Positions 29,637-34,599 of a stretch of DNA of 64,000 nucleotides are shown here, piece by piece. This stretch comes from Planctomycetota bacterium (GTDB lineage Bacteria; Planctomycetota; Phycisphaerae; Phycisphaerales; SM1A02), in the NCBI GenBank assembly GCA_016872835.1, contig VGYX01000008.1, forward strand, positions 1 through 64,000, read 5' to 3'. The notes beneath the pieces were generated by a model. That model saw nothing but the letters and a program-made list of their open reading frames with translations. It did not search any database and was not told the origin of the DNA. Positions within the stretch are counted from its first letter, which is position 1. Each line of letters opens with the position of its first letter. The translations under genes were made by a program, and so were the position numbers.

Positions 29637-30548
29637 TCAGCCACCTATCGCGGCGCGCAACTTGCCTTGGAACTGCTCGATCGTCGGGATGAAGTGGCCC
29701 AGAAGTCCGCGCTGCATGTCGACTTCCATGCAGATCACCATCACGATCGTGAAGGCGATCATGCCGAGCAGGCACGCGGCGAAGCGCGTGGCCCATGTTC
29801 GGTCGCGATCCGACGAGGCCATCTGCAGCAGGATGCTCGCGATCGCGCTCACACCCATGAGCGCGACCATCCAACGCTGCGCGAGAAAGACCGGCTCGAG
29901 CGGATCGAGCAGCAGCGCGAGTGCGGCCGCAGTGATGACGTAGCGCACGCCGTGGTGCCGCCATGCGTGCAGTACGGTGCTTGGATCGACCCACGCGGGC
30001 AGATCGCCGTGCAGGATGCGGCCCACGTTGCGGCGGAACGACAGGATCGACGTCTCGCCCTGCGTGGTCTGTGGTCCGGCGTTCGTGGCTGCGGTCTCGC
30101 CATGCACCACGTGTCTGCGCTTCGCGACATCCGCCTGCCGCTCCGCCTCGGCCCCCTCCGACGCCGCCTTCTGCAGTTCGGATTGCGCGCCGGCCCGCTT
30201 CAGGTCGGGTCTCGGACGACTCGTCCAGGCGCAGAACTCCACACCGGACTCGGTGAGCAGCAGACGATCGCGCTGCTCGCGATACTCCATCAGGCTGATC
30301 CATCCACCCTTGATCGAGCGGCGCATGCGCGCCAGCGACGTGTGATGCACGCGCAGGGCACGGACCACGGGCGGCTCGAACAGCCCGTCGAACTCCCAGC
30401 CCTCGCACCAATCCTCGGTGCCTCCGGGCGCGATGCGGTCCTCGACATCCAGATGGCCCGACGCGACCAGCAGCGGTAGTCGACTCTCGGGCACCGCGTC
30501 GTGACGCGGACCATCCTCGCACCAGATTCGATAGAGCCGCTCACCCAC
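29637..30548 (-). CDS. Hypothetical membrane protein
   Basis: Coherent ORF with hydrophobic segments VRYVITAAALALLL, WMVALMGVSAIASILLQM, LLGMIAFTIVMVICM. Confidence 0.6.
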   Translation of the reverse strand: MGERLYRIWCEDGPRHDAVPESRLPLLVASGHLDVEDRIAPGGTEDWCEGWEFDGLFEPPVVRALRVHHTSLARMRRSIKGGWISLMEYREQRDRLLLTESGVEFCAWTSRPRPDLKRAGAQSELQKAASEGAEAERQADVAKRRHVVHGETAATNAGPQTTQGETSILSFRRNVGRILHGDLPAWVDPSTVLHAWRHHGVRYVITAAALALLLDPLEPVFLAQRWMVALMGVSAIASILLQMASSDRDRTWATRFAACLLGMIAFTIVMVICMEVDMQRGLLGHFIPTIEQFQGKLRAAIGG

Positions 30549-30601: not shown

Positions 30602-30937
30602 ATGGTTCCGAGGATCTCCGCATCGATCGCCGTGCTCATGCTGCTGTGTGCCTGCGAGTCGCGCTATCAGGAAAACTGGGGTCGACTGAAGGTCGGCATG
30701 ACGCAGGTGCAGGTGGAGGATCTGCTTGGCGAACCAAGCAGTCGCTACGAGGCTCGCACCGACCAGGGCAAGGTGATCGTGCCGGAGACGCGCTGGCAGT
30801 ACGGCGACAACCTGAGCACGCTGGCCACGGGCGTGGTGTTTCCCACGGACGCTGACGCGCGCGCCTGGGCCGTCTACTTCGACGCGGAGGGGCGCGTGAG
30901 CCGTTTCCGCGCGGCGGAATGGGCGCAGGGTCGTTGA
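30602..30937 (+). CDS. SmpA/OmlA (BamE)-like small lipoprotein
   Basis: IAVLMLLCAC lipobox; WGRLKVGMTQVQVEDLLGEPSSRYE typical of SmpA/OmlA-like domains. Confidence 0.7.
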   Translation: MVPRISASIAVLMLLCACESRYQENWGRLKVGMTQVQVEDLLGEPSSRYEARTDQGKVIVPETRWQYGDNLSTLATGVVFPTDADARAWAVYFDAEGRVSRFRAAEWAQGR

Positions 30938-30952
30938 GCGAAGTCGACGCCG

Positions 30953-31462
30953 ATGCCACTGGGTCCTGAAGCATTGCTGCGTCGGCTGGAGGCCGCTGGG
31001 TTCACCGACGAGGCCTCGGACCTGCGGACATCGGGCTCGTTGGAGCATGTCGAGGCAGGCGAATCGGAGAGCGAGGACGGCCTGCCGGATCGACTCGGCC
31101 CCTTCGAGATCGTGGGCGAGCTTGGGCAGGGCGGCTACGGCGTGGTGCTGCTGGGCACGCAGCATCGGCCGGTGCGGCGACTGGCCGCCGTGAAACTGCT
31201 GAAGCGGGGCATGGACAGCCGGAGCGTGCTTGCGCGATTCCGTGCGGAACAGCAGGCGCTGGGTCGCGCCGACGTGCGCAGTGACGTCTGGTCGCTCGGC
31301 GTGATTTTGGGCGAGTTGCTGGCGGGCGTGCGGCCGCTCGATCGCGAGCCCGCGCGCGGCGCGGATAGACGGGTGGATGCCGGCGTGTTCGTTCGTCCCT
31401 CGGAGCGCTTCCATCGATGGACGGGGCTGGATGCGTCCGCGGCCCCGCGGCGCGCTGCATGA
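30953..31462 (+). pseudogene. Internally deleted Hanks-type Ser/Thr protein kinase remnant
   Basis: LGPFEIVGELGQGGYGVVLLGTQHRPVRRLAAVKLLKRGMDSRSVLARFRAEQQAL (subdomains I-III) joined directly to RADVRSDVWSLGVILGELLAGVRPLD (subdomain IX); HRDLKxxN and DFG absent. Confidence 0.8.
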
Positions 31463-31828
31463 GTCGCCGCTGGGCCAGGATGCGTGAGGCGAGTTCCCGA
31501 AGCGTGGCGTAGTGCGTCTCCAGCATGCCATGCAAGGCACGCACGGACTGTGCTTGAAGGACTGGTTTCTTTCGGGTTTGAGACATCGTGACGCTGTGAG
31601 TGTGGCCGAGCCCGCGTGCTGCCCGGTCGCTTCAGCTGATCGGCGACCGGGCAGCGCGGGTGACCCTTGTTTCCGAAATCTTCCCGCGTCGCCGACCGGC
31701 TCGGCGTGAAGGCGTCAGAATTCCGGAAGGGCTCGCGACCCATCTGGGTGCAGATGGATCCAGAACGAGACGCGCGGAAACCACCCTGATGCCATCACGA
31801 GAATTCGAATTTTTTCGCCGCTGACCTG

Positions 31829-31863
31829 AAAGAGCCCCGGCCGCACAGGCCGGGGCTCTTGAT
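31829..31863 (-). terminator. Terminator downstream of atpD
   Basis: Inverted repeat AAGAGCCCCGGCC-gcaca-GGCCGGGGCTCTT; on minus strand followed by TCAGG. Confidence 0.7.

Positions 31864-31889: not shown

Positions 31890-34599
<2,710 letters not shown>

Follow-up and report, generated by a model that had tools for sequence, protein, structure and literature searches.

ECF sigma factors have been reported that carry Ser/Thr-bearing residues instead of DAED and are switched on by a Ser/Thr kinase encoded next to them, and further kinase-activated ECF groups have been predicted from planctomycetes (PMC8999054, PMC8103513). We analysed a stretch of 64,000 nucleotides from a Planctomycetota genome (contig VGYX01000008.1, positions 1 to 64,000; hereafter the window), which appears to hold the remains of a comparable pair. 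Elsewhere in the genus, an intact sigma-factor gene adjoins a Ser/Thr kinase gene. This resembles ECF43 (EcfP/PknT, EcfK/PknS) and the planctomycete ECF59, ECF61, ECF62 and ECF217, where the sigma factor also lies beside a kinase gene and where, as in the genus, DAED is gone from sigma region 2.2 with Ser/Thr instead. Specifically, the eleven intact genus sigma factors carry SPTS (10 of 11) or SPSS (G001) at the usual DAED position. They match TIGR02999 (Sig-70_X6) and PF07638 (Sigma70_ECF) over nearly their full length, the TIGR02999 score of a genus sigma factor (95.8 bits) being under the cut-off of 126.15. The occurrence of PF07638 sigma factors beside kinase genes would be in keeping with a planctomycete lineage. 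Because of this adjacency, the SPTS/SPSS segment in place of DAED and the published ECF factors, we infer that in the relatives the kinase would phosphorylate this segment and so turn the sigma factor on.

The orientation of the genus pair is different from that of most relatives. Of 65 similar sigma hits in related genera, at least 39 lie no more than 1.5 kb from a kinase hit; at least 36 of these are on the same strand as the kinase, sigma first, whereas the genus pair converges. The two genes face each other in the intact loci L037, L038, L039 and L041–L048. In the window, neither gene is intact.

The kinase partner can be compared with Hanks-type Ser/Thr kinases with a TPR C-terminus (PF00069 with TPR_12/TPR_10), whose full domain set and motifs are present in the genus orthologs. 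Relative to these, the window copy retains subdomains I–III and IX–X but has lost subdomains IV–VIII and the end of the domain, along with the membrane segment and every TPR.

Results

The kinase remnant and its full-length orthologs

The open reading frame at 30953–31462 (+ strand; ATG at 30953, TGA at 31462) encodes 169 aa and starts 15 nt behind bamE. Its product contains GELGQGGYGVVLLG and AAVKLLKRG, followed by RFRAEQQAL, which runs directly into GRADVRSDVWSLGVILGELLAG. In fact, kinase subdomains I–III, including the P-loop and Lys, are fused to subdomain IX. This junction had been proposed in an initial annotation of the DNA, and both ortholog alignment and Pfam confirm it at the positions given there. 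The N-terminal piece (30953–31261, + strand; 103 aa) comprises a leader, the glycine-rich loop GQGGYGVV, the VAIK lysine (here in AAVK) and alphaC up to EQQAL, and is 53–68% identical to the genus orthologs. The second piece (31262–31437, + strand) covers subdomains IX–X (GRADVRSDVWSLGVILGELLAG...RPSERFHRW) at 46–71% identity. Remnant residues 1–103 align to the ortholog kinase N-terminus and residues 104 to ~160 to the segment past the PEQ motif. Similarly, Pfam Pkinase matches the remnant in two separated pieces, the best placing residues 107–132 on profile positions 175–200, with a total PF00069 score of 31.2 bits, under the curated cut-off of 31.7. Third-position GC of the remnant (0.79–0.80) is slightly under that of its neighbours (0.82–0.93).

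A search of the remnant protein against 40 relatives, a comparison that the initial annotation had recommended, found syntenic long kinases in the genus. These orthologs are Ser/Thr kinases of ~860–880 aa with a TPR C-terminus, in most cases with frames of 867–880 codons; in the two inspected as examples, Pfam shows a complete Pkinase domain and then TPRs. The gene order in the genus is M3-type peptidase, orf303, bamE, kinase, facing gene (sigma) and atpD, and the window kinase lies in the same place. Two neighbours anchor this synteny: (I) a gene for a small BamE-like lipoprotein, immediately upstream of the remnant (30602–30937, + strand; Pfam BamE, E 4.7e-7), which adjoins the kinase across the genus, and (II) atpD, encoding the ATP synthase beta subunit (31890–33350, − strand, start provisional; Pfam ATP-synt_ab), 87–96% identical in the genus and in the same place. 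Because the relatives hold long syntenic orthologs, the window gene is the derived short form, and it keeps ~160 of the ~860–880 ortholog residues.

We also note two features of the surrounding DNA. A 303-aa protein (29637–30548, − strand) is conserved in the genus at this place with about 31–48% identity and has no Pfam or NCBIfam match above cut-off. Just behind atpD lies a perfect 13-nt inverted repeat (31830–31860), which is probably the atpD transcription terminator.

Two deletions in convergent genes

In five orthologs, the E of PEQ follows that of EQQA at a distance of 129 residues, compared with 1 in the window; therefore, 128 codons (384 nt) are missing with the frame kept. The initial estimate of ~110–130 absent residues in an open frame thus agrees with the alignment, toward its upper end. 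This first deletion took the region after alphaC through the HRD catalytic loop, DFG and the activation segment, all of which lie within the 128 absent codons. Codon comparison with the five orthologs places its junction at 31250–31262 (+ strand), at a short shared sequence (CAGCAGGCGCTGG), which at either endpoint is approximately AGCAGG(C) in the closest relatives. Such a short shared endpoint sequence is of the kind seen at deletions by slippage or end-joining and suggests a similar origin here.

Kinase similarity stops near 31437, and a second deletion has its junction at 31436–31444. Judged from the orthologous loci, its size is 2,123 nt (versus G010) or 2,139 nt (versus G001). It removed the kinase C-terminal lobe, membrane segment, TPRs and stop, the intergenic DNA and the 3' part of the convergent sigma gene. 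Loss of the C-terminal half had been recognized from the window alone; it is real and amounts to more than half, although the second deletion had been seen only in part and the sigma gene had been missed. What is left of the latter is the first 49 codons of an ECF sigma-factor gene (31440–31586, − strand; MSQTRKKP...LMQRAAGP), convergent to the kinase and without sigma2.2 onward. Because the opposite strand from 31440 reads the start of this gene, the final ~8 residues of the 169-aa frame are the antisense strand of the truncated sigma-factor gene and not kinase. In relatives, the facing gene encodes a sigma factor of the ECF type (PF07638, E 1e-19). Compared with the TIGR02999 and PF07638 models, the window copy retains the N-terminal 49 residues only, and Pfam finds no match in them. 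Its assignment comes from a 32-aa match to the sigma factor of G001 (68.75% identity) and is supported by the genus sigma alignment.

Upstream of the sigma-factor start lies a very stable hairpin (31612–31660, − strand; −39.7 kcal/mol, z −6.2). By alignment, it is conserved in 4 of 5 clade members, namely the window's genome (G000), G010, G004 and G012, but not in G001. The exact pattern occurs once in the window's genome and persists there despite the broken sigma gene; an Rfam search of the locus returned sub-threshold chance matches only.

Loss of the pair across the genus

Genomes with the kinase also have the sigma ortholog, which is absent or truncated in G000, G008, G013 and G014. The assembly of G008 lacks the locus. 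G012 has the sigma gene and the two ends of the kinase, the middle of which falls in a gap between contigs. G013 carries a kinase remnant (L049:4336–4850) with a stop at codon 3 and a frameshift; its last kinase residues are GLPIHAR, and behind them comes a sigma remnant in antisense. This is a separate event, namely a tail-to-tail deletion that differs from that of the window and has the same outcome. In G014 (L105:5404–5583), 179 nt lie between bamE and atpD, and kinase and sigma are both cleanly absent.

The pair is lost in 3 of the 15 genus members with the locus at least partly assembled, in two of the three by a deletion fusing the facing genes. A five-gene protein tree places G000 in clade A, while G013 and G014 occupy separate positions in clade B. 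Since these three genomes are placed apart, three separate losses are the simplest reading, given a pair in the genus ancestor.

Discussion

Taken together, the 169-aa frame is very probably what two inactivating deletions left of a Hanks-type Ser/Thr kinase with a TPR sensor half, leaving the kinase–sigma switch dead. In most of the genus, an intact kinase at this locus faces an ECF sigma-factor gene. In the window, a 384-nt in-frame deletion removed the catalytic core, and a deletion of ~2.1 kb the rest of the kinase together with the functional part of the sigma factor. The whole switch would be dead in this organism, and its loss is presumably recent, since the surviving codons have not drifted so far. 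The remnant may still be translated and is most likely without any role. The reading as a decayed gene is well supported because full-length syntenic orthologs exist, the sigma gene is destroyed too and the pair was lost separately in two other species. A literature search on pseudogenes in Phycisphaerae returned nothing relevant.

An error of assembly or binning would offer another account, in which intact kinase and sigma genes exist and the assembler skipped two stretches or took a minority strain variant. The window's genome is a draft (2.39 Mb, 46 contigs, 98.9% complete) and probably a metagenome bin, and contig ends interrupt the same kinase gene in G012. However, at either junction the shared sequence spans only ~5–10 nt, well under usual assembler word sizes, and the locus lies in the interior of a 139,895-nt contig. 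The missing kinase parts are not found elsewhere in the assembly: queried with two parts of the G004 ortholog, its catalytic segment and its C-terminal half, the window's own genome yielded only paralogs, of at most 51% and 40% identity, respectively. The similar loss in G013 and G014 also argues against such an error, which we consider unlikely.

The state of the surviving codons bears on whether the product still functions. The initial annotation had left the choice between a decaying pseudogene and a minimal pseudokinase, here a truncated N-lobe with an alphaF stub that binds nucleotide or a partner. For the latter speak the open frame and the retention of P-loop, Lys and every ortholog-invariant residue of the N-terminal piece (41 of 41), with a single such change within the homologous stretch of the second piece. 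In addition, a codon model gives omega ~0.07 on the remnant branch, much as in the background (0.084); omega = 1 over that entire branch is rejected (2dlnL 12.3), the branch being long and its synonymous sites saturated. Because of this saturation, the codon data fit recent loss or continued constraint alike. The open frame and constrained codons do resemble a living gene and in that respect count against decay, but a recent loss on a long branch predicts them just as well. Structurally, the alignment shows that the remnant falls short of a near-complete bilobal kinase fold: beta4–beta5, the hinge and most of the C-lobe, with alphaE, catalytic loop, DFG and activation segment, are missing. The sigma partner is wrecked by the adjacent deletion, the 3' end of the frame is chimeric, and the short form is found in no relative. 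Structure prediction gave a pLDDT of 46 for the remnant, compared with 56 (pTM 0.59) for an intact ortholog with an equally shallow alignment, and was set aside as evidence because this intact control scored only slightly better. Of the two initial options, the pseudogene is thus favored by the syntenic orthologs, the destroyed sigma gene and the parallel losses, while the functional pseudokinase is very unlikely and gained no positive support. It is likewise highly improbable that the remnant was retained for a new non-catalytic N-lobe role, for example by binding a partner of one of the other kinases (six other Pkinase matches occur in the window's genome).

Finally, the notion that the long kinases arose by insertion into a short ancestral gene can be dismissed: no support for it was found, every intact genus member, in either clade, carries a long kinase with canonical motifs, and the short form sits within clade A with its facing sigma gene cut too.

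The decayed kinase on its own is a dead or dying gene and mostly a case of ordinary gene decay; the added value lies in the repeated loss of the pair within the genus. We considered co-loss as proof of functional coupling and held this back, since kinase and sigma genes adjoin and adjacency alone lets one deletion strike both. The repeated loss of the pair nevertheless fits a single switch that is dispensable as a unit. In the relatives, the convergent pair, with SPTS/SPSS in place of DAED, is a candidate kinase–sigma system on which to test whether phosphorylation controls ECF factors of this lineage.
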